52,821 nt of DNA, from assembly GCF_030160015.1 (NCBI RefSeq), contig NZ_BSNN01000009.1:1-52821 (forward strand). Direction: 5' to 3'. Positions within the stretch are counted from its first letter, which is position 1. Every line of letters begins with the position of its first letter. Position numbers and translations under genes: made by a program. The notes below the pieces were generated by a model that was not told the DNA's origin, ran no database searches, and saw nothing but the letters and a program-made list of their open reading frames with translations. Source of the stretch: Amylibacter marinus (GTDB taxonomy: Bacteria; Pseudomonadota; Alphaproteobacteria; Rhodobacterales; Rhodobacteraceae). Of this stretch, positions 1 to 47,949 are shown piece after piece.

Positions 1-82
1 GGGGGGGGGATCGCATATCAGCGCCACGCGGTGCTCGGTGGCCTCTGGGTGGACAAGGCGGAAGGTTTGGGTGACCAATTCG
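1..82. repeat. Terminal overlap, left copy
   Basis: Bases 1-82 are identical to 52740-52821. The left copy starts within a G run (9 G here, the last nine of 10 G at 52739-52748). A direct overlap at both ends that restores an open reading frame is the signature of a circular molecule linearised at an arbitrary point. It is not a biological terminal repeat. Confidence 0.95.
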
Positions 83-6383: not shown

Positions 6384-6415
6384 GGCGCGGGGGTACACGC
6401 CCCCGCGCCTTTTTT
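6384..6415 (+). terminator. Rho-independent terminator of the TRAP operon
   Basis: A perfect 10-bp stem, GGCGCGGGGG (6384-6393) with CCCCCGCGCC (6400-6409), a 6-nt loop TACACG and a run of six T (6410-6415). It lies 24 bp after the Usp stop codon and touches the 3' end of the converging ppc gene. Confidence 0.9.
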
Positions 6416-28765: not shown

Positions 28766-28807
28766 AACCCTGCGCCACAATCGTGCCACAGGGCGCGCGG
28801 GCCGCTC

Positions 28808-30025: not shown

Positions 30026-30026
30026 A

Positions 30027-31382
30027 TTATTTAACCCCTGCTGTGCCATCAAATTTCTTCTCTATACTGTCCCAACAATCGATATAATCGTCCTGTAGGG
30101 GCGCGGTTTCTGCCGCGAATTTCGTTAGGTGCTGCGGAAAGCGGGTCTCGAACATAAACGACATGGTGTTTTCCAGCTTCTCTGGCCCTAAATTCGCATT
30201 TGATGCCTTGTCAAAGGCCACCTGATCTGGCCCATGGGGCAACATCATATTATGCAAAGACATCCCCCCCGGCACAAAGCCATTTGGCTTGGCATCATAT
30301 TGCCCGTAAATATTGCCCATCAATTCTGACATGATGTTCTTGTGATACCACGGCGGGCGGAATGTATCCTCGGCCACCATCCAGCGATCGCGAAACAACA
30401 CAAAATCGATATTCGCCGTGCCCTCTTGGCCAGAAGGTGCGCTTAGCACGGTGAAAATCGACGGATCAGGATGATCAAACAGGATCGCCCCCACCGGGCA
30501 ATAGGTGCGCAGATCGTATTTATAGGGCGCATAGTTGCCATGCCACGCCACCACATCCAGCGGCGATTGGTTGATCTTGGTTTCGTGGAATTGCCCACAC
30601 CACTTGATGGTTAGGGTAGAGGCCACCTCGCGATCCTCGAATGCCGCCACGCTGGCCTTGAAATCGCGCGGGTTGGCCATGGCATTAGCACCAATGGGGC
30701 CACGGGCGGGCAGCTCGAATTTCTGGCCATAGTTTTCGCAGACAAAGCCGCGGCAAGGCCCCGCCAGAACCTCGACACGATATACCAAACCGCGCGGGAT
30801 AATCGCGATTTCCTGCGGGGCCACATCCAGAACGCCCAGCTCTGTATAAAACCGCAAGCGCCCCTGTTGGGGCACCACCAGCAATTCGCTGTCGGCAGAA
30901 TAGAAATACTCGTCGACCATGCTCTGGGTCACCAAATACACATGCGAGGCCATGCCGACCTGTGTGTTCACATCCCCCGCGGTGGTCATGGTGCGCATGC
31001 CCGTTAGCCACGTTAGATCCTGTGCCCCTGCCTCGATCGGATCCCAGCGGTACTGGCCTAGGCTGGTTACATCCGCGTGGATATCAGGGGCGGATCGCCA
31101 CAGCGGCAAATCGATGCGGCTGTAACGGGCCGAATGTTTTACGGATGGGCGAATGCGGTAACACCATGTGCGTTCTGGGATATGGGCCGTAAAGGCGGTG
31201 CCTGACAGCTGTTCGCCGTATAGCCCATAATTGCACTTTTGCGGGCTGTTCATGCCCTGGGGCAATGCCCCGTCTAGGGCCTCGGTTTCAAAATCATTGC
31301 CAAACCCGGGCATATAGCCTGCGTGGGGGCCGGGGGTGCTGGGGGCGCGGCGCATACCATCGCGCAGGGGATACTCGCTCAT
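30027..31382 (-). CDS. hmgA: Homogentisate 1,2-dioxygenase
   Basis: Iron-dependent ring-cleaving dioxygenase that turns homogentisate into maleylacetoacetate. It is 451 residues, full length. I take the second of two adjacent ATG codons (31382) because GGAG is then six bases upstream. The N-terminus has the signature [20 protein letters not shown] and [12 protein letters not shown]. The iron ligands fall in the region from [20 protein letters not shown] to [16 protein letters not shown] and [13 protein letters not shown]. It is divergent from a MarR regulator with two operators between them and is followed by fahA. The enzyme that makes homogentisate (4-hydroxyphenylpyruvate dioxygenase) is absent here. 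Confidence 0.96.
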
Positions 31383-31416
31383 CATCTACTCCGGTTCTGG
31401 GGTTGGTATAATATTC

Positions 31417-31942: not shown

Positions 31943-33028
31943 CTACAGCGTAACCGCCTGTCCTGTGGTGGCGGATTCCTGCGCCGCTAGGCCAATGGCC
32001 ACGGCCCATGCGCCATCTGCCAATGTCACCTCTGGCTCTTGTTGGCCCAACACCACGCGCTGAAAACCCTCGTGCTGGTAAAAGGTCGATCCATTGTGAT
32101 CCCCTGCATCCAATAGTTTTTCATCTACGGGGATCATCTCGGTCTGCGGGCCCTTGGGGTTGCGCGGGCTGATCACCAATTTCGAAACCGGTGCCGCACC
32201 TAATTCCACAGGCCAGAATCGCCCCGGCCCGGGCACAAAACATTCAATCTTGCCCTCTGGGCCAATGGCGCTGACATGCTCTTGATATTCCGCGCCCTCG
32301 GCAAACATAGATAATTCCAGCATGGCGCGCATGCCATTGGCAAAATCCACAATCACATAGCCACAATCCCAGATGTCAGATGTTTCGCCACCATAGACCT
32401 CGTCCAGATGGTTCACCTCTTGGCCCGCGCTGGCCATCACCCGCACGGGGTCAGATTTCGTAACCAAGCGCATCAAATCAAAAAAGTGACAGCATTTTTC
32501 CACCAAGGTGCCACCCGATTGCGCGTTAAAGCGATTCCAATCGCCTACTTTTGGCAAAAACGCAAAGCGGTGTTCGCGAATGGTCAGCATCTTTACCCCG
32601 CCCGTGCTGGCATCCACACGATCCAATAGCGCCGCAATCGGCGGCATATAGCGGTATTCCATCGCCACCCAAATCGGGGCGGCGTGGTTTTCGCCAATGG
32701 CGCGCACCCGCGCCGCATCACCCGCATCGGTATACAGCGGCTTTTCCACCAATATCGGCAGATCACATTTGGCGCTGATCTGTTCCAGCTGATCCACATG
32801 CACATGATTGGGGCTAACAATCACCAAGCAATCCAAATCCGCAATCGCCAGCAAATCATCCAGCGCATCAACCATCACCGCATCTGGGGCCAGCCCAGTG
32901 GCAATTGCCCGCATCTCTGGGTCTGGCTCATATATCGCGGCAACCTTGGTATCGGTTAGCAGCTGGATGTTCTTGATGTGCTCTTGGCCCATCATACCAC
33001 ATCCGATAATGCCGTAGTGAAGTGTCAT
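31943..33028 (-). CDS. Gfo/Idh/MocA-family protein, candidate NAD-dependent sulfoquinovosidase
   Basis: NAD(P)-binding oxidoreductase-fold protein of 361 residues. The Rossmann motif is YGIIGCGMMGQEHI at the N-terminus, the EKP motif is ILVEKPLYT at about residue 93, and the C-terminal domain has the DWNRFNAQSGGTLVEKCCHF segment. It lies 9 bp after the GntR regulator gene and divergent from smoC. Known oxidative sulfoquinovose clusters carry a GH31 sulfoquinovosidase (SmoI), which is missing here. A family of Gfo/Idh/MocA enzymes (GH188) that hydrolyse sulfoquinovosides by transient NAD oxidation has been described, and this gene is in the right place for that job. An alternative is a sugar dehydrogenase. 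Fold assignment is firm; the activity is inference. Confidence 0.75.
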   Translation of the reverse strand: MTLHYGIIGCGMMGQEHIKNIQLLTDTKVAAIYEPDPEMRAIATGLAPDAVMVDALDDLLAIADLDCLVIVSPNHVHVDQLEQISAKCDLPILVEKPLYTDAGDAARVRAIGENHAAPIWVAMEYRYMPPIAALLDRVDASTGGVKMLTIREHRFAFLPKVGDWNRFNAQSGGTLVEKCCHFFDLMRLVTKSDPVRVMASAGQEVNHLDEVYGGETSDIWDCGYVIVDFANGMRAMLELSMFAEGAEYQEHVSAIGPEGKIECFVPGPGRFWPVELGAAPVSKLVISPRNPKGPQTEMIPVDEKLLDAGDHNGSTFYQHEGFQRVVLGQQEPEVTLADGAWAVAIGLAAQESATTGQAVTL

Positions 33029-33037
33029 AGGGTATCC

Positions 33038-33751
33038 TTATTTAAGACGCGAAACATAGGCGGCCACATCTGGATCGAACCAATTGCGCGAATATTCCAC
33101 GGGGTTTGCATGTTGATCCCAAGCGATTCGCTCTACGAATCCGACCACATCGCCGGCCTTGGGGGAAAATTGATCTACCGTCCATCCCGGAACAGGCGCG
33201 GCGGATATGCTGTCTTCGGCCCGCGCGATCCACAGGCCCAGCTTGGATTTATAAAAATGATAGAGGCTTTCGGATACCTCGGATGTATCGATGCGATCCG
33301 CACAGGCCCCATCCAGCCAAATCTCCTCTAGTGCTGCGGGAATATTGCCCAGCAAACGCAATCGGCGAAACCGAAATGCGCGGGTAGATGTGCCAAACGC
33401 CGGCAGGTCATCGGGCTTGTCCATATGCGCCACAGACAGGGTCTGGGCGGTGGGCAATCCCCCCCCACCCTTTAGTTCTAGGCGAAAAAACGCATAGATG
33501 CTGTCGGCGCCATCCACATGGCGAATATAATTCCCCGACCCTTGGCGCCGCTCGATTAACCCGCGCGTCACCAACAGCGCCAGCGCCTTGCGCAGGGTGC
33601 CAACGGCCACGCCAATATCGGCGGCCATGGCGCGCTCTGGGGGCAGGCGATCGCCCACCAACAGATGCCCCGCCTCGATATCACGGGCGATCATCTCGGA
33701 AATTTGCACATAGGCAGGCAATGCCCCATGGGCGGAATCATCGGCCAGCAT
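33038..33751 (-). CDS. GntR-family regulator (HutC/UTRA type) of the sulfoquinovose cluster
   Basis: Repressor of 237 residues from ATG 33751, which has GGGAGGGG just upstream; an in-frame TTG four codons earlier is less likely. The winged helix covers about residues 13-78 (YVQISEMIARDIEAGHLLVG, LPPERAMAADIGVAVGTLRK, IERRQGSGNYI). The UTRA ligand domain follows (AFRFRRLRLLGNIPAALEEI, SISAAPVPGWTVDQF). It is co-oriented with the Gfo/Idh/MocA gene and divergent from the smoC operon, so it probably controls both with a sulfoquinovose-derived ligand. Confidence 0.9.
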   Translation of the reverse strand: MLADDSAHGALPAYVQISEMIARDIEAGHLLVGDRLPPERAMAADIGVAVGTLRKALALLVTRGLIERRQGSGNYIRHVDGADSIYAFFRLELKGGGGLPTAQTLSVAHMDKPDDLPAFGTSTRAFRFRRLRLLGNIPAALEEIWLDGACADRIDTSEVSESLYHFYKSKLGLWIARAEDSISAAPVPGWTVDQFSPKAGDVVGFVERIAWDQHANPVEYSRNWFDPDVAAYVSRLK

Positions 33752-33768
33752 TTCCCCTCCCAAAAAAA

Positions 33769-33803
33769 TTGATACACCATTGATTTATAATTTGATGCCT
33801 GAT
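33769..33803. promoter_or_regulatory. Phased TTGAT repeats between GntR and smoC
   Basis: TTGAT occurs at 33769-33773, 33780-33784 and 33792-33796, with CTGAT at 33799-33803. The first three are 11-12 bp apart, that is on the same face of the helix. They fill most of the 81-bp divergent promoter region and are the best candidate for the GntR operator. No cleaner dyad is visible. Confidence 0.4.
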
Positions 33804-33832
33804 TAACTATTCCCAAGCAAGAGGAAATTTCC

Positions 33833-34990
33833 ATGACCATCGTTCCCATCACATCCGCCGACCTAGACGCCGCCGAGGTCTCTTGGTTCTCGGCACTCTG
33901 TTCGGATGACTATCAATATCTGGGCGTGCCCGATGGCGCGTTGCGCTCGTCATGGGATCATTGCTCGGCCATCCTAAAACGCGCCGAGGAAAACGGATTT
34001 GGCAATATCCTGTGCCCATCATCCTATCAGGTGGGCCAAGATACCCTGTCATTTGTGGCCGGTGGTGCGCCAATTACCGACAAGATCAACATGCTGGCGG
34101 CGGTGCGCTGTGGCGAAATGCAGCCCATCATGCTGGCGCGCACCTTGGCCACGCTGGATCACATGCTACAGGGCCGCCTGACGGTGAATATCATCAGCTC
34201 TGATTTCCCCGGTCAAAAAGAAGACAGCAGCTACCGCTACCAACGCTCGCGCGAGGTGGTGGAAATCCTGCGCCAAGCATGGACACAGGATGAAATCAAC
34301 TTCGACGGTCAGATTTACAATTTCAGCGGCGTCAAAACCGATCCCGTAAAACCATTCCAACAAAACGGCGGGCCGCTGTTGTATTTCGGCGGCTATTCCC
34401 CCGATGCAATCGATCTATGCGCCGAACATTGTGATGTTTACCTGATGTGGCCAGAAACCAAAGAGGATCTGGCCGATCGCATGAAAACAGTGGCCGCCAA
34501 GGCCAGCGAATATAACCGCACGCTGGATTACGGCCTGCGGGTGCATATGATCGTGCGCGATACCGAACAAGAGGCGCGCGAATACGCCCAAGAATTGGTG
34601 TCCAAGCTACAGGACGACAAAGGCGAAGAAATCCGCAAGCGCGCATTGGACGCGGGATCGCTGGGCGTATCGCGTCAGGCCCGCAACCGCGATTTGGCCG
34701 ATATGGATGGGTTCATTGAACCCCACCTCTGGACAGGCGTTGGCCGCGCGCGCTCTGGGTGTGGTGCCGCATTGGTTGGATCCGCAGATCAAATCCTATC
34801 AGAAATCGAAAATTACAAAAAAATGGGCATGCGCGCCTTCATCTTCTCGGGCTATCCCCACCTAGAAGAATGCGATTATGTCGGCAAGCTGATCCTGCCC
34901 GAAATGAAAACATGCTCTCTGCCCCATGAATACGGGCGGGTACCCTCAACCACACCAAATACGCCCCTGGGCAATGGAAAGCGCACGTAA
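33833..34990 (+). CDS. smoC: Sulfoquinovose monooxygenase (flavin-dependent, SsuD-like)
   Basis: Bacterial luciferase-like (LLM) monooxygenase, 385 residues, using reduced flavin and oxygen to cleave the C-S bond of sulfoquinovose, releasing sulfite and 6-oxo-glucose. Sequence stretches such as LGVPDGALRSSWDHCSAILK, ILCPSSYQVGQDTLSFVAGG, LYFGGYSPDAIDLCAEHCDV, and the C-terminal TCSLPHEYGRVPSTTPNTPL are closer to SmoC than to general SsuD as I remember the families. It is the first gene of an operon with the reductase and ABC transporter expected for that pathway. AGAGGAAA precedes the start. If the substrate were another sulfonate, the sugar-type transporter and aldose reductase partner would not fit as well. 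Confidence 0.87.
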   Translation: MTIVPITSADLDAAEVSWFSALCSDDYQYLGVPDGALRSSWDHCSAILKRAEENGFGNILCPSSYQVGQDTLSFVAGGAPITDKINMLAAVRCGEMQPIMLARTLATLDHMLQGRLTVNIISSDFPGQKEDSSYRYQRSREVVEILRQAWTQDEINFDGQIYNFSGVKTDPVKPFQQNGGPLLYFGGYSPDAIDLCAEHCDVYLMWPETKEDLADRMKTVAAKASEYNRTLDYGLRVHMIVRDTEQEAREYAQELVSKLQDDKGEEIRKRALDAGSLGVSRQARNRDLADMDGFIEPHLWTGVGRARSGCGAALVGSADQILSEIENYKKMGMRAFIFSGYPHLEECDYVGKLILPEMKTCSLPHEYGRVPSTTPNTPLGNGKRT

Positions 34991-35883
34991 TGCAAAAATT
35001 GAATATCACCGAAAACCTAGACATGAGCCGCATCATCTATGGCATGTGGCGCCTAGGGGATGACACAAACACCAGCGCGAAACACGTTCAGGCCAAGATC
35101 GAGACCTGCCTAGAACAAGGGATCACCACATTCGATCAGGCCGATATTTACGGCGATTACGCCAGCGAAGAAATCCTAGGCGCCGCCCTGAAACAGGCGC
35201 CGCAATTGCGCGACAGCATGCAGATCATCACCAAATGCGATATCATGCTGACATCGGATAAATACCCAAATCGCCGCGTGAAATATTACGATACATCCGC
35301 CGCGCATATCACCGCATCTGTGGAAAATTCCCTGCGCGTGATGAATATCGACCAAATCGATATGCTGTTGCTACACCGCCCTGATCCACTGATGGATGCC
35401 GCAGAAACAGGCGCGGCGCTGGATGATCTGATCACCTCGGGCAAGATAAAATCCGCAGGCGTTTCCAATTTCAAACCCCATGATTGCTCGCTGTTGCTGA
35501 CCTTCATGAACCAACCGCTGGTTGCCAATCAAATAGAGCTAAGCCTGCTGGAAAACAGCGCGCTGACCAATGGCGATCTGGCCTTTATGCAGGAATGCGG
35601 CATCGCACCCATGGCGTGGTCTGCACTGGCAGGGGGGGCGCTATTCGCACCTGAAAACGCCACCCTTTTGGATAATCTGGCGCGTATCGGCGCCGATCAC
35701 GGCATCGATGCATCTGCGGTGGCGGTGGCATGGTTGCTGGCACACCCCGCTAAAATCATGCCGGTGCTGGGCACCAATAATCTGGATCGCATCGCCAAGC
35801 TATCCGATGCCACACGCATGGATATGGACCGCGAAACATGGTTCGAATTGTACGAAATCGCCAATGGACACGAGGTAGCCTAA
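34990..35883 (+). CDS. smoB: Aldo/keto reductase, 6-oxo-glucose reductase
   Basis: NADPH-dependent aldo/keto reductase of 297 residues. The catalytic tetrad is visible: D and Y in FDQADIYGDYASEEILG, K in QIITKCD, H in MLLLHRPDP. The C-terminal coenzyme loop is IMPVLGTNNLDRI. The start overlaps the smoC stop by one base (TAATG), showing coupling. In the oxidative sulfoquinovose pathway this enzyme reduces 6-oxo-glucose to glucose, which then enters normal sugar metabolism. The substrate is assigned from context. Confidence 0.85.
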   Translation: MQKLNITENLDMSRIIYGMWRLGDDTNTSAKHVQAKIETCLEQGITTFDQADIYGDYASEEILGAALKQAPQLRDSMQIITKCDIMLTSDKYPNRRVKYYDTSAAHITASVENSLRVMNIDQIDMLLLHRPDPLMDAAETGAALDDLITSGKIKSAGVSNFKPHDCSLLLTFMNQPLVANQIELSLLENSALTNGDLAFMQECGIAPMAWSALAGGALFAPENATLLDNLARIGADHGIDASAVAVAWLLAHPAKIMPVLGTNNLDRIAKLSDATRMDMDRETWFELYEIANGHEVA

Positions 35884-36410
35884 TGACCCACCACGCCCCG
35901 ACCAGTTTTGCACCCGATGCGGATGACCCGCGCCAATTGCGCGATGCATTTGCAAAATTCGCCACGGGCGTTTGCGTGATCACCACGCGCGGGGCCACTG
36001 GCCCCATTGGCATTACGGTAAACAGCTTTGCCTCGGTGTCGCTGGATCCTGCACTGGTGCTGTGGTCTTTGGCCAAATCCAGCAACAGATTCGGGGTTTT
36101 CGCACAGGCCACCCATTGCGCCATCCATATTCTGGCGGCGGATCAGATGCAGGGGTGCATGGATTTCACCAAACGGGCCGATGCCTTTGATAATTTTAAG
36201 ACCGAGTATAATACCCACGGCGTACCGGTTATTCAGGACTGCCTAGCCAGCTTTGAATGCAGCGCACATGCTGTGCATGATGGAGGAGATCATAGCATAT
36301 TTGTGTCCAAGGTAGACCGTGTCACCACCACCAAGGAAAACCACATGAAAGAGCCATTGGTTTTCTTCAACAAGGCCTTTGGTCAATTTGACACAGAGGC
36401 GCGCCAATAA
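35883..36410 (+). CDS. smoA: Flavin reductase, partner of SmoC
   Basis: Short-chain flavin reductase of the HpaC/flavin reductase-like family, 175 residues from ATG 35883 (TAATG overlap with the gene before). Family features are LRDAFAKFATGVCVITTRG, GITVNSFASVSLDPALVLWS and AIHILAADQ. It supplies reduced FMN or FAD to the monooxygenase two genes upstream, which cannot reduce flavin itself. Confidence 0.87.
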   Translation: MTHHAPTSFAPDADDPRQLRDAFAKFATGVCVITTRGATGPIGITVNSFASVSLDPALVLWSLAKSSNRFGVFAQATHCAIHILAADQMQGCMDFTKRADAFDNFKTEYNTHGVPVIQDCLASFECSAHAVHDGGDHSIFVSKVDRVTTTKENHMKEPLVFFNKAFGQFDTEARQ

Positions 36411-36442
36411 CATCAACATCGTAATTTCATAGGGAGGAAACA

Positions 36443-37708
36443 ATGAAATATTCAACCAAAATGCTGGCAACCGCCGGCACCATCCTTGCAGGATCCATCG
36501 CGGCACATGCCGACGAGGTGACATTCCTGTGCTACCAAGATGGCAACGAATGCGAGGTCTTTGCCGGCATGGCAGATGCCTTTACCGCCAAAACCGGCCA
36601 CACCGTTAAAATCGACACCGTTGGCTATGACGTGATCCGCGATCAGCTGGAAAACCAGCTGCAAACCGGCTCTGCCCCTGATGTGGCACGCGTAACCAAT
36701 CTGGGCGGCCTAAATCAATACTACCTAGACCTTACCCCCCACGTAGATACCGCATACTGGGAAGAAAACTACAGCGCCACATTGCCATGGTTCCGCCAAC
36801 CGGGCGGCGAAGATGCGGGCATCTATGGCTGGATGACACAGCTAACCGTGACCGGCCCATACGTAAACGTATCCATGTTCGAAGACGCAGGCGTTGATAT
36901 GCCTGGTGCGGGTGCGACATGGGATGATTGGGCCAATGCCCTGCGCGAGGTGAAAGAAACCCTTGGCATCACCGCTGGATTGGCCATGGATCGCACCGCC
37001 CACCGCATGGCCGGCCCCGCATTTTCATATGGCGCGAAATTCTTCGATGACACAGGCACACCGATCTTGGTCGACGAAGGTTTTCGCAAATTCGCAGAGA
37101 CATTTGTTGGCTGGCACAAAGAGGGCCTGATGCCCGCAGAAGGATGGCCCGCAGGGTCTGGCACACAGTATAAAAATGCCGCACCCCTGTTCCTAAGTGG
37201 CGAAGTAGCGATGCATATGTCAGGGTCTTGGATGATCAACAACTATGCCGAAAACATCAAAGATTTTGATTGGAAAGTGGTCCCCGCCCCCTGTGGCGAT
37301 GGCGGCTGTGGCGCAATGCCCGGCGGTGCCGGCGTGGTTGCCTTTAAATCCAGCAAAAGCCCAGAAGCAGCCGCAATGTGGGTGGATTTCCTAGCACAAA
37401 CAGAAAACACCGAGGCCTTCGCGGCCGCCACCCGCAACATCCCAGCCCACGCTGGCTTGCAGGCATCTGGTGTTGATTACGGTGATGCATCCCCCGTGGT
37501 TGCCGCATCTCTGTCTGTATTCGCGGCAAACGCTGGCGAGGCTGCTAAATCCACACCCCAAGCCTATACATTCCAAGGCTATAACAAAAACCACGTGATC
37601 TACGGTATCGTTCCCGATTACCTGACCAAGGCAATCACTGGCGAAATCACCTTGGATGCGGCCCTAGAGGCAATTGATGCGGATGTTGCCGCAAAAATCG
37701 CCGAATAA
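36443..37708 (+). CDS. smoF: ABC sugar-type solute-binding protein, sulfoquinovosyl-glycerol receptor candidate
   Basis: Periplasmic family 1 binding protein of 421 residues with a signal peptide of about 23 residues (cut after AAHA). GGGAGGAAACA is a strong ribosome site. Sugar-receptor features are DVIRDQLENQLQTGSAPDVA, AAPLFLSGEVAMHMSGSWM and MPGGAGVVAFKSSKSPEAAA. In the known cluster SmoF binds sulfoquinovosyl glycerol, which fits an importer placed after monooxygenase, reductase and flavin reductase genes. Which residues hold the sulfonate cannot be decided by eye. Confidence 0.83.
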   Translation: MKYSTKMLATAGTILAGSIAAHADEVTFLCYQDGNECEVFAGMADAFTAKTGHTVKIDTVGYDVIRDQLENQLQTGSAPDVARVTNLGGLNQYYLDLTPHVDTAYWEENYSATLPWFRQPGGEDAGIYGWMTQLTVTGPYVNVSMFEDAGVDMPGAGATWDDWANALREVKETLGITAGLAMDRTAHRMAGPAFSYGAKFFDDTGTPILVDEGFRKFAETFVGWHKEGLMPAEGWPAGSGTQYKNAAPLFLSGEVAMHMSGSWMINNYAENIKDFDWKVVPAPCGDGGCGAMPGGAGVVAFKSSKSPEAAAMWVDFLAQTENTEAFAAATRNIPAHAGLQASGVDYGDASPVVAASLSVFAANAGEAAKSTPQAYTFQGYNKNHVIYGIVPDYLTKAITGEITLDAALEAIDADVAAKIAE

Positions 37709-37746
37709 ACGCACACGCGACCACAGGCCAGCAAAGGGTTCTGACT

Positions 37747-38808
37747 ATGCTAGAAGCACTCTCAAATGCATTCTCCGGCAATAGCTGGCCTGTGGCATTT
37801 ATAATATACTTGGTCTTAGGCTGGGTTCTGGTGCGTCCCAAGGGGCGCATCGGCGGCCAGCTGATGTCCGCACTGGGCTGGCCCATCGAAATCGCACAGC
37901 GCCTATCGGGTGCCACGGGCCTGCCCTATATTTTCCTGCTGCCCAATATGATTATCTTTGGGCTGTTCACCTTCTCGCCCCTGTTTATCAACATCGGTTT
38001 TTCGGTGACCGAGGGCCAAAGCATCCTGTTTGAAAACCGCCCCTATGCGGGGCTGGATAACGCGCGCCGCCTACTGGCGGAAACGCAAATCGACACAGGG
38101 GCGCTAAACCGCGAGGATGATAAATTCCTACAGGCGGTGGCGGATACCTTTATCTTTGTGATCTTTCAGGTGCCGATCATGGTGTTTTTCGCACTGTGCA
38201 CCGCATTGGCCCTAAACCGCGAAATCATCGGCCGCGCCTTCTGGCGCTCGGTGTTTTTCTACCCCGTGATGCTCTCGCCCGTGGTGGTGGGATTCCTGTG
38301 GACATTGATCCTAAAACGCCAAGGCGTTCTGTCGATAACCCTGATGAATTGGGGCATAATCGATGAACCCATCCAATGGTTAACAGACCCCAGCTGGACA
38401 ATGTTCTGGTCGGTGGCGGTCTACACATGGGCACACCTAGGGTTTTATATGCTGATCCTGCTGGCGGGCCTACAGGCGATCCCCAAGGATCTATACGAGG
38501 CCGCCCGCATGGACGGCACCAACGAATGGCGCATGTTGCGCCGCATCACCCTGCCCTTGCTGATGCCCACGCTCTTGGTGGTCACCATCCTGTCACTGGT
38601 CAAGGCATTTCAGGCCTTCGAGGAACTCTATGCGCTGAATGTGCGCTGGATTTCACTGGTGGCCTATATTTTCGAAACATCGGGCCTGCGCGGCCAACCT
38701 ACGGCCAATGGTCTGGGCATTGCGGCCACGGCATCGCTGTTGGTGGCCTTGGTGCTGATCCTGCTGTCGCTGTTGCAAATCTATCTGACCTCGAGGCAAA
38801 GTAAATGA
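37747..38808 (+). CDS. ABC sugar-type transporter permease (MalF-like)
   Basis: Inner-membrane permease of 353 residues, SmoE/G/H-type component. It has an extra N-terminal membrane segment (about residues 13-30) before the usual six. The EAA loop is IPKDLYEAARMDGTNEWRML. The ribosome site is weak (GGTTCTGACT). It overlaps the next permease gene by ATGA. It would form the channel with the larger permease downstream. Confidence 0.88.
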   Translation: MLEALSNAFSGNSWPVAFIIYLVLGWVLVRPKGRIGGQLMSALGWPIEIAQRLSGATGLPYIFLLPNMIIFGLFTFSPLFINIGFSVTEGQSILFENRPYAGLDNARRLLAETQIDTGALNREDDKFLQAVADTFIFVIFQVPIMVFFALCTALALNREIIGRAFWRSVFFYPVMLSPVVVGFLWTLILKRQGVLSITLMNWGIIDEPIQWLTDPSWTMFWSVAVYTWAHLGFYMLILLAGLQAIPKDLYEAARMDGTNEWRMLRRITLPLLMPTLLVVTILSLVKAFQAFEELYALNVRWISLVAYIFETSGLRGQPTANGLGIAATASLLVALVLILLSLLQIYLTSRQSK

Positions 38809-40241
38809 GCGCTGTTTGGCAATTTTTGGGCCGCCGCCAAGGCCACGATAAACTCTCTGCGGTGGATTGGATCGTCTATATCTACCTGTTCTTCGGCTTC
38901 CTGATCATCGCCCTGCCCGTGGGCTGGATCGCGCTGAATTCCGTGAAATCCGCGTTTCAATTGGAAAAACAAGACCTGTCAATCCTGCCCAGCGATTTCA
39001 ATCGCGTGGCCCGCGCCACCGTCTATTCCGATCAGGGCCGCGAGATTTTCATCATCAACGACCTGCCGGATTGGGTGCTAAATTGGAAAGACCTGCGCCC
39101 AGAGGAACGCGCGGCGCGAAACGTGCCAGAATTCCTAGCCAGCTATGAGGGACGCGCATTCTATGCCCTGCGTTCACACCTAGGACAGGTACCAACACAG
39201 GTGCGCGCCCTGATCGCGGCGCAAAATATGCCGGAATGGTTGCTGCGCTACCCATCAATGTCCGCAACCGCGCGCCAAGACGTGGATATCGAGGCCGCCC
39301 TCGCAGGGCGCAGCGCGGACGAGCGCCGCCTGCTGGGCGAATTCCTAGGTCTTGCCCCCTATGAACCCAACCGCATGATCAGCCAAATTCTGGTCACCGC
39401 CCCGCACCCAGAAACGGGCGTTGTGCAAAACTATGCCGTGCCGAAATTCGACCCAAGCCGCCCGTTTTTGGCCGCGCGCGATGCCACCAATGCCACATCC
39501 GGCGTGATCCGCATCCCCACAGAAACCGCCACCGCCACGCGCACGATCAACCCCTCTTGGGGCAACTATATCGAACCGCTGTCGGGCAAGGCCTTTGGGG
39601 TGAATGTAAATTTTGCCGCCTGTTTCACCAATTCGGTGCTGGTTACGCTGATCGCCACGCTTCTGACCCTGCTGATCAATTCAATGGCCGCGTTTTCCCT
39701 ATCTAAATACAAATTCCGCGGGCAGACGATGTTCTTTGTGATCATTCTGGCCACGCTGATGGTGCCCCCCACCATCACCTTGGTTGGGGTGTTTAAGGCG
39801 ATTAACGCAACCGGCCTGTCTGGCTCTATCTGGGGGGTTATTATCCCAGGTGCGGCCACGCCTGCGGGGGTTTTCCTGTTGCGTCAATACATGTTGACCA
39901 TCCCAGACGAGCTGATCGAGGCCGCCCGCATGGACGCCGCATCGGAATGGAAGGTCTACTGGCGCATTATCCTGCCGCTGGCCCTGCCCGCATTGGCCGC
40001 ATTGGGCATCCTGTCGGTGATCTGGCGCTGGAATGACCTAATCCTGCCCATGGTGGCCATCGCCACCACCAAAGAGGCCTATACAATTCAGCTGTGCCTG
40101 TTGGAATTCCGCGGCGAGCACCTGTCACAGGAACACTACCGCTTGGCAATGACAATGGTCAGCCTTATCCCCACCACTCTGGTCTTCGTATTCTTGCAAA
40201 AACACATCACAACCGGTGTGGCGAATACAGGGCTTAAATAG
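38805..40241 (+). CDS. ABC sugar-type transporter permease (MalG-like) with large periplasmic insertion
   Basis: Inner-membrane permease of 478 residues, far longer than the usual 280-300 of MalG-type permeases. TM1 is at about 22-45. About 195 extra residues (roughly 55-248), hydrophilic and presumably periplasmic, follow before the standard domain resumes at FGVNVNFAACFTNSVLVTLI. The EAA loop is IPDELIEAARMDAASEWKVY. The insertion has no motif I recognise; it contains SDQGREIFIINDLPDWVLNW and similar soluble sequence. It might contact the receptor or the glycolipid-derived ligand. The rest of the protein looks intact. Confidence 0.87.
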   Translation: MSAVWQFLGRRQGHDKLSAVDWIVYIYLFFGFLIIALPVGWIALNSVKSAFQLEKQDLSILPSDFNRVARATVYSDQGREIFIINDLPDWVLNWKDLRPEERAARNVPEFLASYEGRAFYALRSHLGQVPTQVRALIAAQNMPEWLLRYPSMSATARQDVDIEAALAGRSADERRLLGEFLGLAPYEPNRMISQILVTAPHPETGVVQNYAVPKFDPSRPFLAARDATNATSGVIRIPTETATATRTINPSWGNYIEPLSGKAFGVNVNFAACFTNSVLVTLIATLLTLLINSMAAFSLSKYKFRGQTMFFVIILATLMVPPTITLVGVFKAINATGLSGSIWGVIIPGAATPAGVFLLRQYMLTIPDELIEAARMDAASEWKVYWRIILPLALPALAALGILSVIWRWNDLILPMVAIATTKEAYTIQLCLLEFRGEHLSQEHYRLAMTMVSLIPTTLVFVFLQKHITTGVANTGLK

Positions 40242-40250
40242 GACGAACCC

Positions 40251-41333
40251 ATGAGCGATTTAAAACTAGATAACCTGCATAAATCCTACGGCGCCACCAA
40301 GGTGATCCATGGCATCGATATGCAAATCGACAGCGGCGATTTCTGCGTCTTTGTGGGGCCATCGGGCTGTGGTAAATCCACGCTGTTGCGCATGATCGCG
40401 GGGCTGGAATCCGTAACCAGCGGTACCGTATCGATCGAGGGCCAGCCGGTGAATCACGTCCCCGCCGCACAGCGCGGTCTGGCGATGGTATTCCAATCCT
40501 ATGCGCTCTACCCGCATATGTCGGTGCGCCAAAACCTGTCATTCGGTCTAGAAAACCTGCATATGCCCAAACAAGAGGTGCAAGAGCGCATCAACGAGGC
40601 CGCCCGCATGTTGCAGATCGAGGAATTGATGGATCGCAAGCCCGGCCAACTGTCGGGGGGGCAACGCCAGCGCATCGCCATAGGCCGCGCCGTGGTGCGC
40701 GAACCTAAAATCTTCTTGTTCGATGAACCCCTATCAAACCTAGATGCGGAATTGCGCGTGGCCATGCGCGCGGAAATCTCTGATCTGCATTCCCGCCTTG
40801 GCAATACCATGATCTATGTGACCCATGATCAGGTCGAGGCCATGACCATGGCCGATAAAATCGCCGTGCTGCGCAAAGGTCTGGTCGAGCAATTCGGCCG
40901 CCCGCTGGACCTGTTCAACTACCCCGCCAACCGCTTCGTGGCTGGCTTTATCGGCTCACCGGCCATGAATTTTGCCGATGGGGTGATCAAGGGCGCGTCG
41001 GTTGTTCTAAACGCCGGCGGCACCATCCCGCTGCCCCAGGGCCGCTTTGACACTACAGATGGCCAACAGGTCACCTTCGGCATCCGCGCCAGCCACCTAT
41101 CGCTGGATGAAAACGGCCCCATAAAGCTGTCGGTCAAAACCGTCGAACAACTGGGCACCGAAAGCTATGTCTACGGCCAGCTAGACGACGGCACAGATTT
41201 CGCCCTGCACCAATTGGGCCAAGTAGATGTGCAACAAGGCACCGTGATCAACCTAGCCCCCACATTAGATCACAGCCACCTGTTCGACACAGACAGCGGC
41301 CTAACCCAGCGCATCGACACAGCCCCCACCTAA
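40251..41333 (+). CDS. ABC sugar-type transporter ATP-binding protein (MalK/UgpC-like)
   Basis: ATPase of the importer, 360 residues. Walker A is GPSGCGKST, the Q loop is AMVFQSYALYPHMSVRQNL, the signature is LSGGQRQRIAIGRAVV, Walker B is KIFLFDEPLSNLDAELR and the switch histidine is in MIYVTHDQVEAM. The C-terminal TOBE domain (about 235-355) is typical of the CUT1 sugar family. It ends the seven-gene operon that starts with smoC. Confidence 0.93.
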   Translation: MSDLKLDNLHKSYGATKVIHGIDMQIDSGDFCVFVGPSGCGKSTLLRMIAGLESVTSGTVSIEGQPVNHVPAAQRGLAMVFQSYALYPHMSVRQNLSFGLENLHMPKQEVQERINEAARMLQIEELMDRKPGQLSGGQRQRIAIGRAVVREPKIFLFDEPLSNLDAELRVAMRAEISDLHSRLGNTMIYVTHDQVEAMTMADKIAVLRKGLVEQFGRPLDLFNYPANRFVAGFIGSPAMNFADGVIKGASVVLNAGGTIPLPQGRFDTTDGQQVTFGIRASHLSLDENGPIKLSVKTVEQLGTESYVYGQLDDGTDFALHQLGQVDVQQGTVINLAPTLDHSHLFDTDSGLTQRIDTAPT

Positions 41334-41474
41334 GGCGCGGCGCATTAATCCCCCCGCACCGCACGCTCCAGGCGGGCGGGGGTGTATCCCCCACACTTGC
41401 CAAAACCATACCCCCGCGCTATATCGCCCCCATACCGGTCGAAGCCCTACCCGGTCATCAAAACAGGAAACATT

Positions 41475-42176
41475 ATGAAAACCCTCGTTATATGCTCTGG
41501 TGGGCTGGATTCCGTATCCCTTGCCTATAAAACCGCCGCCGAAGGCGCGCTGACGCGGCTGGTGTCCTTTGACTATGGCCAACGCCACCGTAAAGAGCTG
41601 GATTATGCCGCCCGTGCGGCCGCGGCGCTGAAGGTACCCCACCAGATTATCGATATGCGCAGCATTGGCGCCGCGCTTACCGGATCGGCCCTGACATCTG
41701 ATATCGACGTGCCAGATGGCCACTATGCCGAGGAAACCATGAAAATCACCGTGGTGCCCAATCGCAATGCAATCATGCTCAGCATCGCATTCGGCATTGC
41801 CGCGGCCAATGGCGACCAGGCCGTGGCAACCGCCGTGCACGGGGGCGATCATTTCATCTATCCCGATTGCCGCCCCTCCTTCACAACGGCGTTTAATACC
41901 ATGCAACGCGAGGCGCTGGACGGCTATGCGGATGTCTGGCTGGTAACACCCTATGTGAATGTGCCCAAATCCGATATCGTGGTGGATGGCGCGCGCCACA
42001 ACACCCCGTTTGCAGATACGTGGTCCTGCTACAAGGGGGGCGATCTGCACTGCGGGCGCTGTGGCACCTGTGTCGAGCGGCGCGAGGCCTTCCACATTGC
42101 AGGCATCCCTGATCCCACCGAATACGCCGACCCGGAATTCTGGGAAACGGCCGTAAATCTGATGGGGGATAAATAA
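41475..42176 (+). CDS. queC: 7-cyano-7-deazaguanine synthase
   Basis: Makes preQ0 from 7-carboxy-7-deazaguanine with ATP and ammonia. It is 233 residues from ATG 41475 (GGAAA upstream). The PP-loop is CSGGLDSVSLAYK. The zinc cluster is C-x8-C-x2-C-x2-C in WSCYKGGDLHCGRCGTCVER. VVPNRNAIMLSIAFGIA is also diagnostic. It heads a tightly packed queCDEF operon. The 141-bp gap upstream has a GGGGG-TGTAT-CCCCC hairpin (41378-41392) without a T run and no recognisable preQ1 riboswitch. Confidence 0.96.
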   Translation: MKTLVICSGGLDSVSLAYKTAAEGALTRLVSFDYGQRHRKELDYAARAAAALKVPHQIIDMRSIGAALTGSALTSDIDVPDGHYAEETMKITVVPNRNAIMLSIAFGIAAANGDQAVATAVHGGDHFIYPDCRPSFTTAFNTMQREALDGYADVWLVTPYVNVPKSDIVVDGARHNTPFADTWSCYKGGDLHCGRCGTCVERREAFHIAGIPDPTEYADPEFWETAVNLMGDK

Positions 42177-43711: not shown

Positions 43712-45001
43712 CTAGTCGGCGTCAAAACACCCCGGCACCATACCCTCCCAGAATTCAAAAATCGCGCGCGCATTCAACGCCGACCCCCAAGAATTGCGCG
43801 CGAAATCATCGCGCGACAAATCATCGGATAATTGGCTGGAAAACAGCGCCCTATCTGCGCCGCGCTGTGTGGGATTACGCGCCGCGACCAATTCCGCCAC
43901 AATGGCAAATTTGCGCACCCGCTCGCGGCGATCTGCATGGCGGGCATCCTCGGCGCGGGCCTGTGCCTGATCGGCCTGTTTGCGCGCCGCCCCTGCGGCT
44001 ATGGCGCGATCCGAGGGCGGTGGGGCCTTGGGCCTTTGGGCCAGCTTATAATCATCACGAATGGCGGCGGTAAGATATCCCAGCGATGATTTGGCCTTGC
44101 GGTTGGCCACATAGCTCAGCTTTTCTGCGATATATTCATCACCATGTTCGGCGATCCATTGGCGGGCCAGCCGATCTGATACGCCTTGGGCCAACAATGC
44201 CTCATAGACCTTGCTGGCGCGCAAACCATCGCTGTCGTCGATGTTAAACATCGCCAGTTGCGGGTTTTCGGCGATCTTGAATCGGATGTCGCTGATCGCG
44301 CGGCCCTTTTTGCGAAACTCTGGCACAATGGAAATATCAGATGTTTTGCACACCTCGGCCACGGCGGGTTTTATGATCTTGGCATTCAGGTGCTTAAAGC
44401 TCTCGTAGTAACTGCTGCCCTCAACCCCCATCAACTTGCGAAAGGTTTCAAGGCTCCACCATCCCGTGCTACCGGTGCGCACGAAACGATAACAGTTTTC
44501 ATAGAGCGCCAGCCCATGGCCGCTGGAAAAGTTGCGCTGAATATTTACATTGATCAGCGCATATATCTTGGGGTCATGCAATTTTTGCGCCAAAACGGGG
44601 CTATAGGCATATTCGCACACGCCCCCCTTTAGCTTAGCATAAGAGAGCAGCGCGCTAACCCCCCATTCCTGCTTGCCGTCCTCGTCCAGCATATCCCATT
44701 CGGCCACGGTCTCGGCCAGCGATTTCAGGCTGGCGCGCAGGGTATCCATATCGTTGGAATTATACCCCACAATCATCGCCAATGTCTTGGCATCAATGGA
44801 ATGGCTGGCGCTGGTTTGGAGGGTGTCATAGGCATTCAACAACAGCACATTGGACAGCTTGCGTTGCAACAGAGACAGCTTGCCCGATATGTGAATCGCG
44901 CCCACATGCTTTTTAACCGTCTCGCGGCGCAATGCCCCGCTGAGCTGTTCTGAATCTGTGCCTGTCTGTGCCATCATCTGCCGTGATTCTGCCTTTGGCA
45001 T
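43712..45001 (-). CDS. Plasmid replication initiator (Rep_3/RepB family)
   Basis: Winged-helix initiator that would bind the iterons upstream and open the origin. From ATG 45001 it is 429 residues; a TTG at 45013 or ATG ATG at about 44977 are alternatives since no strong ribosome site is present. The Rep_3 domain covers about 25-260: HISGKLSLLQRKLSNVLLLN, YSPVLAQKLHDPKIYALINV, ALYENCYRFVRTGSTGWWSL and FRKLMGVEGSSYYESFKHLN. The C-terminal part is basic and helix-rich (AARKQADQAQARAEDARHAD). Initiators of this family with divergent parAB are one of the main plasmid types in Rhodobacterales. Confidence 0.92.
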   Translation of the reverse strand: MPKAESRQMMAQTGTDSEQLSGALRRETVKKHVGAIHISGKLSLLQRKLSNVLLLNAYDTLQTSASHSIDAKTLAMIVGYNSNDMDTLRASLKSLAETVAEWDMLDEDGKQEWGVSALLSYAKLKGGVCEYAYSPVLAQKLHDPKIYALINVNIQRNFSSGHGLALYENCYRFVRTGSTGWWSLETFRKLMGVEGSSYYESFKHLNAKIIKPAVAEVCKTSDISIVPEFRKKGRAISDIRFKIAENPQLAMFNIDDSDGLRASKVYEALLAQGVSDRLARQWIAEHGDEYIAEKLSYVANRKAKSSLGYLTAAIRDDYKLAQRPKAPPPSDRAIAAGAARKQADQAQARAEDARHADRRERVRKFAIVAELVAARNPTQRGADRALFSSQLSDDLSRDDFARNSWGSALNARAIFEFWEGMVPGCFDAD

Positions 45002-45015
45002 AGGGTGACACAAAA

Positions 45016-45080
45016 GGTACCCAAGATCAATTAACGTTGGGTTCTTTGGGTAAATTCCGCCGGCCCCGCAGACGGGTACC
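45016..45080. promoter_or_regulatory. Candidate rep autoregulation sites
   Basis: Two further GGTACC cores lie outside the tandem array, at 45016-45021 and 45075-45080, in the short region upstream of rep. Next to the first, ACCCAA (45019-45024) and TTGGGT (45037-45042) form a dyad. Initiators of this type often repress their own gene by binding inverted copies of the iteron near the promoter. Confidence 0.5.
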
Positions 45081-45193
45081 TTTCAATCATCAGGCGGCGA
45101 TACAGGATTTTGAAGGACAGAATAGCCCCCAAATTCGCACGAAAACAGCCCAGATTGGTCGATTTATTGCCCAAAAACAGCCCCCTGCGAATC

Positions 45194-45303
45194 GGAACCC
45201 TTGATCCCGTATTCAGGTACCCATAGCCCCGTATCCGGGTACCCTTGCACCCGAGAATCGGTACCCTTGCGCCTGTATACAGGTCCCCAAGGAGGCGTAA
45301 CAC
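45194..45303. repeat. Five tandem 22-bp iterons (replication origin)
   Basis: Cores GGAACCC, GGTACCC, GGTACCC, GGTACCC and GGTCCCC start at 45194, 45216, 45238, 45260 and 45282, an exact 22-bp period (two helix turns). The following bases are also similar (TTGCNCCCGTATNCA-like). The outer two copies are degenerate. This spacing is the classical arrangement for a Rep_3 initiator binding side by side on one helix face. Confidence 0.85.
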
Positions 45304-45480
45304 ATTGAAAAAAAATAATTTTTCTAAGCTAAACCTCTTAAATACATTAAACTCATTAAACAGTTTATTGCGTGTTCTTTCTTTTTGTTTATTGGGTTTC
45401 GTCGCGAAACTTGGCCAAGGCTGGGAAAAACCTACAAACAATATTTGGTTCTTTGAATAATGTACGCTATTATCCCTGAT
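45304..45480. other. AT-rich segment next to the iterons (probable DNA-unwinding region)
   Basis: This stretch is clearly richer in A+T than its surroundings, with an A run at 45309-45316 and repeated ATTAAAC-like words (45347-45363). It lies directly after the iterons and before parA and holds no gene. Melting of such a segment starts replication in iteron plasmids. I did not find a perfect DnaA box. One parS copy lies inside it (45396-45410). Confidence 0.55.
45396..45410. promoter_or_regulatory. parS-like site 1 (in origin region)
   Basis: GTTTCGTCGCGAAAC, a 15-bp palindrome with arms GTTTCG and CGAAAC. The same element recurs twice within parA and parB with C in place of T at position 7. 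It is the likely ParB binding site (centromere). Confidence 0.7.
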
Positions 45481-45509
45481 ATCTGAAAAAATACCAAACA
45501 TCTGATGGG

Positions 45510-46907
45510 ATGCGCGATTTGACCAAGCAACAAACACCCCTGCCCCCCTATATGAACCTTAGCCCAGAGGCCGCGGCCAGCAAGCTCCCCGATCCTATCG
45601 ACACTGCGCGATTCGCAAAAGCGGCATCTTTCTGCGCGCAGGGGCGCGCTGATCTAGCACAGCGCGGCTATGCGCCTGATGGCAAAAAACACCTGCGCAA
45701 ATTTTCCACATGGGAGGTGACCAAATACCTGATCCCGGTGGCGCCCGCTCATTTGCGCCGTGTGCTAAAGGCCAATCCAGATTTGCCCCAAGGCGAGGGC
45801 GAGGGTGGGTCTAAGTGGTTTACCCTAGACGAAGTTCTAACCCTGCGCAGTCATTTCGCAACCGAGGGCATCAGCACCAAAGAATACCTGCCCTATCGGC
45901 CCAAAGGCCAGCCCGCCAAGGTGGCTGCAGTTGCCAATTTCAAGGGCGGCGTGGGCAAGACCAGCACGGCCGCACATCTGGCCATGTCCGCTGCGCTGGA
46001 TGGCTATAAGGTTTTGGTGATCGATCTGGACAGTCAGGGGTCAATGACCAGCATTCTGGGTGGGGATGTGCCTGATGAGTGGTCCACCGTGTTTCCGCTA
46101 ATCGCTAAGGATTATGCCAAATCTGTACAGGCCGAAAATCTGGTGCGCGCCGCGGCTGGCCAGCCTGAAATCCCGCTGGATGAAACCCTGACCGAAGCGC
46201 TAGAGGTTTCGCCGCGAAACGTTATCCAATCTACCCATTGGCCAAATATCGATCTGATCGGCGCCCAGCTGAATTTGTACTGGGCCGAGTTTCAAATTCC
46301 GGTCTGGCGTATGGGTCTACGCTCTTGGGCGCTGTGGGATGGGTTACAAAACTTCCTAACCGACGAGGGCATACTGGATGAATACGATCTGGTTTTGCTG
46401 GATACACCGCCTGCCCTTGGGTACCTAACCATCAATGCGCTGGCGGCGGCGGATATCTTGCTGGTGCCACTGGGTGCGTCGTTTCTAGAATTCGATAGCA
46501 CAGGGCGCTTCTTTGATATGTTATACACCACTTTCGCGTCTATTGAGGAAGGCGAGAATGCTGGCTTGCGGGCGGCGGGATTGCCAGAGATGAAGTTCGA
46601 GTGGGATGTGGTGCGCGCCATTGTCACACGGTTTGATGCCAGCCAACAGACCGACATGGCCAATGTTATCCAGGCCTATTTCGGGGATTTTATGAATGCC
46701 TACCGGCAGGATTATACCGCACTTGTTGGGCAGGCTGGCGAACAGGTGAATGGTATTTACGAGGCGGATTACCGCGATTTTAACCGCGATACCTATGTGC
46801 GGGGTCGTGAAGCATTCGATCGAACCTATGCGGAATTCAAAGAGCTGTTGATCGGCTCTTGGTGGCGCGATGAACAAATGAGCGAGGACAACAATGGCGA
46901 AACGTAG
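45510..46907 (+). CDS. parA: ParA-family partition ATPase
   Basis: Plasmid partition ATPase of 465 residues from ATG 45510 (an internal ATG at 45552 is possible). The N-terminal 130 residues contain a helix-turn-helix-like region (LRKFSTWEVTKYLIPVAPAH) as in type Ia ParA proteins that repress their own operon. The deviant Walker A is VANFKGGVGKTSTAAHLAMS at about residue 145-160, Walker A' is VLVIDLDSQGSMT and Walker B is DLVLLDTPPALGYLTINAL. It overlaps parB by 14 bp. A parS-like palindrome is embedded in the coding sequence at 46206-46220. Confidence 0.94.
   Translation: MRDLTKQQTPLPPYMNLSPEAAASKLPDPIDTARFAKAASFCAQGRADLAQRGYAPDGKKHLRKFSTWEVTKYLIPVAPAHLRRVLKANPDLPQGEGEGGSKWFTLDEVLTLRSHFATEGISTKEYLPYRPKGQPAKVAAVANFKGGVGKTSTAAHLAMSAALDGYKVLVIDLDSQGSMTSILGGDVPDEWSTVFPLIAKDYAKSVQAENLVRAAAGQPEIPLDETLTEALEVSPRNVIQSTHWPNIDLIGAQLNLYWAEFQIPVWRMGLRSWALWDGLQNFLTDEGILDEYDLVLLDTPPALGYLTINALAAADILLVPLGASFLEFDSTGRFFDMLYTTFASIEEGENAGLRAAGLPEMKFEWDVVRAIVTRFDASQQTDMANVIQAYFGDFMNAYRQDYTALVGQAGEQVNGIYEADYRDFNRDTYVRGREAFDRTYAEFKELLIGSWWRDEQMSEDNNGET
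46206..46220. promoter_or_regulatory. parS-like site 2 (inside parA)
   Basis: GTTTCGCCGCGAAAC within the parA coding sequence, identical to site 3 and differing by one base from site 1. Retention of a perfect palindrome in coding sequence suggests selection as a binding site. Confidence 0.65.
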
Positions 46908-47949
46908 ACGGCTAACAGCCCCCGACCCCAAGGCCCTAGAAGAGCTGGAAACAGGTTTCGCCGCGAAACCTCCGATAGGCTTGGAAACCAAGGCCATGGC
47001 CCCCATCGCCAAGGTCGCAGGCGAAGCCGCCGCACTGGCAGACCCAACCCCCCCAGAGAGCCGCGCCGCCGCCCTAAGCGATCAGGCCGATGCAGAACGC
47101 TATCGCCGCGCTGCTGCGCAGGGGTTGGTGATCGAGGATATCGAAATCAGCTTGATCAATGTGGATCACATCCAACGCGATCGGATTACCGATACCGAAG
47201 AGGCCCGCTCCGAGCTGCTTGCCTCTTTGCGCGCCAATGGTCAGCGCACCCCGATCGAGGTGGTGAAAACCGAAGAGGGCTATGGGTTGATTTCCGGCTG
47301 GCGGCGCCTGTCGGCGATGATCGATTTGGATTACACCCACATCAATGCGTTGATCCGTGCCGATGAAGACCGCCCCGAAATCTATCTAAACATGATCGAG
47401 GAAAACGAAATCCGCGCCAGCCTCAGCCATTATGAGCGCGGCCGCATCGCCGTTCTGGCCACCACACAGGGGGTGTTCACCAGTATCGAGGGCGCGGTTA
47501 ATCATCTGTTCGCCGCCGCCAGCAAGGCCAAGCGCAGCAAGATTCGCAAATTCGCATTCCTGCACGAGGCGCTGGGGGATCTCTTGGAATTCCCCACAGC
47601 CTTGACCGAGAAAACCGGTCTAGCCATCGCAGCGGCTGTGGATGAAAAATCCAATCTCAACCGCTTTCGCGCAACGCTTAGCTATTACGACCGCCGCACC
47701 GAGGCGGAAGAGGCCAGTGCCATCAAAAAGGCCCTAATAGAAACCAAACCCAAAGTGGCAGATGCCAGCAAAGGCGGGCGCCCTAGCACGCGCAAATCTC
47801 TGCCCAACCGCACGGCCAAAACCGGCGGCATTGTTACAGCCGTGGTTACCGAACAGGGGTTTGCCGTAGAGGTAAAGCACCGCGAAGTGCCCCAATATTT
47901 GGTCGAGGCAGTACAACGCGAAATAGCGCGGATGCTGGATGAGGCCTAG
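46894..47949 (+). CDS. parB: ParB-family partition protein
   Basis: Centromere-binding protein of 351 residues. The ParB nuclease-like/CTP-binding domain covers about 85-170 (SLINVDHIQRDRITDTEEAR, LLASLRANGQRTPIEVV, GYGLISGWRRLSAM, LNMIEENEIRASLSHYERGR). The helix-turn-helix region follows to about 260. The last 40 residues (VEVKHREVPQYLVEAVQREI) are probably the dimerisation part. The box GERR is present as SGWRR. It is translated together with parA (14-bp overlap). Confidence 0.93.
   Translation: MAKRRRLTAPDPKALEELETGFAAKPPIGLETKAMAPIAKVAGEAAALADPTPPESRAAALSDQADAERYRRAAAQGLVIEDIEISLINVDHIQRDRITDTEEARSELLASLRANGQRTPIEVVKTEEGYGLISGWRRLSAMIDLDYTHINALIRADEDRPEIYLNMIEENEIRASLSHYERGRIAVLATTQGVFTSIEGAVNHLFAAASKAKRSKIRKFAFLHEALGDLLEFPTALTEKTGLAIAAAVDEKSNLNRFRATLSYYDRRTEAEEASAIKKALIETKPKVADASKGGRPSTRKSLPNRTAKTGGIVTAVVTEQGFAVEVKHREVPQYLVEAVQREIARMLDEA
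46955..46969. promoter_or_regulatory. parS-like site 3 (inside parB)
   Basis: GTTTCGCCGCGAAAC near the 5' end of parB, identical to the copy in parA. Together with site 1 it gives three sites within 1.6 kb, all in the maintenance region. Confidence 0.65.

Follow-up and report, generated by a model that had tools for sequence, protein, structure and literature searches.

Sulfoquinovose is a plant and algal sulfo-sugar. The smo cluster of Agrobacterium codes for the binding protein SmoF and a GH31 glycosidase, SmoI. Sulfite and 6-dehydroglucose are the products of the sulfoquinovose monooxygenase (sulfo-SMO) pathway according to excerpts of PMC13372026, and ATP-binding cassette (ABC) importers for sulfoquinovose are known in general, as stated in a passage of PMC12421959. 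The closest described systems are the sulfo-SMO clusters of marine Roseobacter bacteria, in which GH188 replaces GH31 beside the sulfo-SMO genes and is near-universal, according to excerpts of Kaur et al. 2023 (PMC10755693). The same excerpts describe the mechanism and activity of SqgA homologues, identify PDB 8qc3 as ArSqgA and 8qc2 as FlSqgA, and name nine ArSqgA residues, which were used here as the reference set. Here, we analyze a cluster of this type from Amylibacter marinus. It is located on a DNA stretch of 52,821 bases (the window), which is an entire contig (C9) of a 2.72-Mb genome assembled in 14 contigs.

The cluster is very likely a plasmid-borne sulfo-SMO locus, and its products can be arranged into a chain that leads from import to glucose, in which the substrates, the regulation and the direction of transport are what we infer. 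The ABC importer would take up sulfoquinovosyl glycerol, or else sulfoquinovose in its free form. Using bound NAD+, SqgA would cleave the glycoside by oxidizing it transiently at C3 and eliminating the aglycone, followed by hydration and reduction. SmoA would provide FMNH2; with it and O2, SmoC would yield sulfite and 6-dehydroglucose, and SmoB would reduce the latter to glucose. The GntR regulator is probably a repressor of both divergent units that acts from the ATTGATACACCATTGAT repeat, and a sugar of the pathway would release it. Such a cluster fits the published picture of how marine bacteria gain access to sulfolipid head groups. As a GH188 sulfo-SMO cluster on a plasmid, it is well supported and ordinary for its clade; its less expected part is the importer, which does not match the known one.

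SqgA and the sulfo-SMO enzymes

The 361-residue Gfo/Idh/MocA protein is, by its sequence, a GH188 sulfoquinovosidase (SqgA). Its best PDB match is 8zn9 (E = 2.4e-152), for which no paper was traced in the literature search, followed by ArSqgA (8qc3, 2.9e-108) and FlSqgA (8qc2, 3.9e-107); the next match is an inositol dehydrogenase at 4.4e-19. The identity to ArSqgA is 47% (169 of 357 residues). In the alignment, K96, Y125, E177, H181 and H311 correspond to the ArSqgA active-site residues K107, Y136, E189, H193 and H321, so that all five are kept, and the sulfonate-binding triad R166, L170 and K172 is kept as R154, L158 and K160. Fold family, active-site residues and sulfonate residues are thus shared with the characterized proteins (PDB 8QC2, 8QC3, 8QC5, 8QC6, 8QC8); the discovery strain, Arthrobacter AK01, uses the sulfo-Embden-Meyerhof-Parnas (sulfo-EMP) pathway, according to the excerpts of PMC10755693. 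These eight residues and E152 are invariant in 92 of 92 aligned SqgA proteins, with the window counted (95 loci have an SqgA match, and three partial matches were left out).

Five Gfo/Idh/MocA paralogs from the same genome served as a control. They show 19-24% identity to SqgA and retain 3, 4, 3, 3 and 3 of these nine residues, and none of them keeps E152, L158, K160 or H311. A generic dehydrogenase was rejected on the gap between PDB matches, the residue set and the paralog control. A reading of the window from its sequence only had proposed a GH188 redox glycosidase, to be abandoned if the protein fell among inositol or glucose dehydrogenases that lack the GH188 residues. This proposal survived, as judged by similarity and residues rather than by a family-wide tree.

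SmoC belongs to the Pfam family of luciferase-like monooxygenases and matches, over nearly its full length, 7olf (E = 9.8e-204) and 7oh2 (1.9e-198), which we take to be SmoC chains, their PDB names being generic. The best other chain is an alkanesulfonate monooxygenase (7jv3, 3.9e-57), and with the NCBIfam equivalog model for that enzyme the protein reaches 239.8 bits, below the cut-off of 518.2. The E-value gap and the score below cut-off rule out an SsuD-like enzyme and place the protein on the SmoC side, as claimed from the sequence; again, this is a matter of similarity rather than of a family-wide tree. SmoB, the gene of which adjoins smoC, matches 7bby at 1.1e-117, presumably a SmoB (the PDB name is generic). 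The assignment of SmoC and SmoB as enzymes of the sulfo-SMO type is thereby supported. No GH31 glycosidase had been seen on the molecule, and this extends to the genome, which has 0 matches to PF01055; as a control, the profile matches in 6 of 14 genomes.

GH188 had been proposed to stand in for GH31. It is present here, but it is no surprise, because it is near-universal in Roseobacter sulfo-SMO clusters (excerpts of PMC10755693). Our own census agrees, and the pairing of GH188 with sulfo-SMO genes is not new. Set A consists of the best 80 of at least 568 SmoC relatives and is, therefore, biased to close kin. SqgA is found in 73 of the 75 set A loci that have 2.2 kb or more of upstream sequence, the remaining two (loci L021 and L031) also being without GH31, which is found in 0 of 80. 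Set B consists of 28 hand-picked loci: 20 come from one other family (out of 32, with lower identities preferred so as to include the SmoF type), and 8 are others. It has SqgA in 17 loci, GH31 in 6, both in 0 and neither in 5.

The ABC importer

From the sequence, the gene order had been read as smoC, smoB, smoA, smoF, two permeases and an ATPase, matching the Agrobacterium type. Positions, enzymes, permeases and ATPase held, but the binding protein is not SmoF, so that the transporter, judged by homology, is not SmoEFGH. A PDB search with the binding protein gives 50 matches at E-values of up to 10, and SmoF is not one of them, while the binding protein of L154, a locus representing the Agrobacterium type, matches SmoF (7nbz) at 7.7e-209 as a positive control. 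Alignment of the two binding proteins gives 23% identity (91 of 389 residues), and blastp gives chance matches only. L154 shares SmoA, SmoB, SmoC and a GntR regulator with the window; it has, however, a GH31 sulfoquinovosidase (matching YihQ) and the SmoF importer, whereas the window has GH188 and a different binding protein. The tripartite ATP-independent periplasmic (TRAP) importer DctQMP, which belongs to related smo clusters, was not found adjoining smoA in the window.

Importer types were counted in loci with at least 6.5 kb downstream. The 61 such loci of set A have 24 TRAP importers, 4 ABC importers of the window type and 33 with none recognized, so that TRAP is commoner among those recognized (24 of 28). 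The 28 loci of set B have 8 TRAP, 5 SmoF and 1 window-type importer, with none recognized in 14. TRAP was called at a 50% identity threshold, and some of the 47 loci without a recognized importer may hold diverged TRAP genes. When short loci, the window and two importer-selected loci are added (n = 111), there are 9 window-type, 37 TRAP and 5 SmoF importers with zero overlap. Because L236 and L237 were fetched for their window-type importer, 9/111 is not a frequency; the frequency is 6 of 108 SmoC-seeded loci, to which the window adds one.

In eight of the nine SmoC loci that have it, the window-type importer lies 3' of the smo genes and in their orientation; L151 has it in convergent orientation, with SqgA on the other side of the importer. 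On a SmoC tree of 98 of the 111 loci (13 were dropped for a short downstream region without a recognized importer or for an incomplete SmoC), this importer has to be gained or lost six times, and well-supported branches force five or more of these changes; shuffled labels require 8.7. By tree path, the window SmoC is nearest to L008, L007 and L009, all with the window-type importer. A culturable relative that has the arrangement of the window is Thalassococcus halodurans (L054).

The binding protein was also searched independently of SmoC. Within the bacterial family of the source genome, 63 of 394 genomes (own counted) match at E <= 1e-60, with identities of 72-79% in seven genomes besides its own, 59% in one, and then 52% or less. 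A second bacterial family contains one ortholog at 71%, followed by matches of 50% or less. Eight importers with identities of 59% or more have a context that can be read, and five of them adjoin SqgA and SmoC (L234-L237 and L151); the context of L240 is too short for classification. Among 24 fetched paralogous importers, four are near SqgA or SmoC (L249, L250, L261, L262). The difference has a Fisher p of 0.023, or of 0.072 when L247 (SmoB and SmoA at its edge) is counted as a fifth paralog, relatedness being ignored in both.

Permease 2 has 477-487 residues in seven of nine clade members, 532 in two for which the start is called upstream, and 348-387 in 22 paralogs. The insertion is located behind the first hydrophobic segment, roughly within residues 75-245, and gave no convincing match when compared with solved structures (one at E = 0.72). 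As a tentative reading, which we consider possible, the window importer would represent a separate family for sulfonated or sulfated sugars, marked by a permease that contains an additional domain, probably in the periplasm; GH188 sulfo-SMO clusters would have acquired it several times instead of TRAP, and sister copies are next to sulfatases. If so, the enzymes of sulfoquinovose desulfurisation are fixed while uptake is swapped among TRAP, SmoF-type ABC and window-type ABC importers, and surveys of sulfoquinovose-glycoside uptake that are based on SmoF miss some users.

Several observations weigh against the chain as proposed. With the offset that suits the other eight residues, ArSqgA Glu163 (paper numbering) falls on a Val, and it is the Glu one position on that aligns with E152. 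SmoA is a generic flavin reductase match below the cut-off of every NCBIfam model that it matches, and it is assigned to the pathway from this family match and its position. Pfam and NCBIfam give only the superfamily for SqgA, the best NCBIfam model being inositol 2-dehydrogenase (101.8 bits against a cut-off of 355). One might thus suspect an ordinary sugar or inositol dehydrogenase that is beside the cluster by chance. We give this next to no credence, considering the 47% identity to ArSqgA with catalytic and sulfonate residues kept, the paralogs that keep 3-4 of nine positions, and the conserved adjacency of SqgA and SmoC. Homology does not fix the substrate either, and GH188 enzymes accept both anomers (excerpts of PMC10755693), so that the cluster might degrade a related sulfo-sugar or sulfonate. 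This is improbable, given that SmoC matches 7olf and 7oh2 much better than it matches other alkanesulfonate monooxygenases and that SqgA keeps the full sulfonate triad.

The importer is the more debatable part. With the enzymes acting as stated, it may serve another sugar, while sulfoquinovose enters via another carrier of the genome. In three of the eight orthologous importers with readable context, the genes are away from sulfoquinovose genes, L239 and the 59% homolog L241 lying by a sulfatase and L238 by another Gfo/Idh/MocA protein. In addition, adjacency of an importer is not required, because 47 of 89 SmoC loci with sufficient downstream sequence have none recognized nearby. A different sugar is nevertheless rather unlikely, as eight of the nine SmoC loci that have the importer place it behind the smo genes in their orientation, none of the 111 loci combines it with TRAP or SmoF, and it is near SqgA or SmoC more often as an ortholog than as a paralog (with the p-values given above). 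Import of a sulfoquinovose compound by this transporter is the more probable reading.

Sulfatase genes directly adjoin the ortholog of the window importer in L239 (L239:7622-9130) and the 59% homolog in L241 (L241:7835-9337). Behind the ATPase gene, L234, L236 and L237 have a gene resembling a "putative sulfate exporter" (52% identity to an annotated one). No such gene was found in the window cluster; PF03601, which we take to be the sulfate exporter family, has one match in the genome, on another contig.

Gene calls, intergenic repeat and replicon

The Pfam families of all cluster open reading frames (ORFs) agree with the expected roles, and the coordinates from the sequence-only reading were confirmed (Table 1), as was the divergent arrangement of the Gfo/Idh/MocA protein and the GntR regulator relative to the smo genes. 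The gntR gene probably starts at the ATG behind a GGAGG rather than at the upstream TTG. The start of smoA probably overlaps the smoB stop codon (TAATG). The GC content of the cluster (0.558 compared with 0.555) is not distinctive. A promoter scan found no excess (6, compared with 8.5 in shuffles), a terminator scan found 16 (12.0 in shuffles), and PADLOC gave no match.

Table 1. Features of the sulfo-SMO cluster and of the replicon, with positions in the window
Feature	Position	Strand	Basis or remark
sqgA, GH188 NAD-dependent sulfoquinovosidase by sequence, Gfo/Idh/MocA fold, 361 aa	31943..33028	-	ORF, Pfam, PDB matches, residues
gntR, GntR/UTRA regulator	33038..33751	-	ORF listed from TTG 33763; likely start ATG 33751
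Operator-like direct repeat ATTGATACACCATTGAT	33768..33784	+	Between divergent units; sole perfect match in genome
smoC, predicted FMNH2-dependent sulfoquinovose monooxygenase	33833..34990	+	PDB, Pfam, NCBIfam
smoB, aldo-keto reductase, predicted 6-oxo-glucose reductase	34990..35883	+	Pfam, PDB
smoA, flavin reductase	35883..36410	+	ORF listed from 35838; Pfam, NCBIfam
ABC solute-binding protein, not SmoF	36443..37708	+	Pfam, PDB search, comparison with L154 SmoF
ABC permease 1	37747..38808	+	Pfam
ABC permease 2, 478 aa, clade-specific insertion	38805..40241	+	Pfam, length comparison with relatives
ABC ATPase, UgpC/MalK type	40251..41333	+	Pfam, NCBIfam
Plasmid maintenance region: Rep3 initiator (-), ParA (+), ParB (+)	43712..47949		Domain scan and DNA search
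Terminal direct repeat, 82 bp	1..82 = 52740-52821		First and last 82 bases identical

Between the divergent units, the sequence reads AATTGATACACCATTGATTTA. Of 111 regions upstream of SmoC (window counted), 102 contain the pattern TTGATNNANNATTG, compared with a mean of 0.02 in shuffled regions, but it was chosen on the same regions in which it was counted, and the shuffles kept base composition only. In its own genome, ATTGATNCACNATTGAT has one perfect match, at the intergenic site between sqgA-gntR and smoC, and seven matches that differ at two positions. The reversed pattern, used as a control, matches once. The conserved repeat is a concrete candidate operator, and a single GntR operator presumably serves both divergent units. 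In the literature searched, no paper was found on the combination of the monooxygenase with GntR. In the literature covered on sulfoquinovose uptake and regulation, neither the window-type importer nor the repeat is described; key papers lie outside this coverage, so that this is no proof of novelty.

Because its 82-base ends are identical and it carries Rep3, ParA and ParB, the contig probably represents a circular 52,739-bp plasmid, in line with the plasmid location that had been proposed. Among the matches listed, the DNA of the Rep3/ParA/ParB region aligns with plasmid replication regions from Ruegeria and Phaeobacter at 73-76% identity, with 42-47% of the query covered. Plasmid-mediated transfer of the cluster is likely. 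No relaxase or transfer domain was found among the 40 window ORFs that were domain-scanned. The plasmid also carries genes of chromosomal type (6414-9149, 25989-31385 and 41382-42529), coding for phosphoenolpyruvate carboxylase, a nirB-like protein with a Rieske partner, homogentisate dioxygenase with fumarylacetoacetase, QueC and a PTPS/QueD family protein.

Related loci

The loci of relatives analyzed here, apart from those of PMC10755693, share with the window the divergent GntR regulator and the occurrence of plasmid copies. Plasmid copies of such clusters are not new: among plasmid records, 11 of 120 with an SmoC match and 10 of 22 with an SqgA match fall in the 60-80% identity band. SmoC is present in 6 of 32 congeners and the window importer in 0 of 32; three of the six were opened more widely and have TRAP (L147, L148, L150). 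L163 has SqgA (64%) together with a SmoF relative (51%) and thus indicates that glycosidase and importer modules mix.

On one deep SmoC branch, L158, L161, L164, L165 and L166 have neither SqgA nor GH31 within about 9 kb on each side and are without the operator-like repeat. A third kind of sulfoquinovosidase was considered for the set B loci that lack both, and was dropped; ten neighbours were scanned (six from L158, four from L166), which belong mostly to housekeeping or regulatory families, with one GH25 and with three from L166 having no Pfam match. L151 has no SmoF or GH31 match; its 667-residue protein has an N-terminus that we take to be GH42-like.

Eight annotated plasmid loci were opened. 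They differ from the window in that seven have TRAP, while one, L109, has an ABC importer. L172, one of the seven, on a Qingshengfaniella plasmid, has GntR, SmoC and TRAP, with no SqgA, SmoB or SmoA annotated in the 17 kb shown, where the gene table is perhaps incomplete. In L109, on the Marinovum algicola plasmid pMaD9, sqgA and smoC are on the same strand, an esterase and a dehydrogenase are added, and the binding protein is a relative of that of the window with 45% identity.

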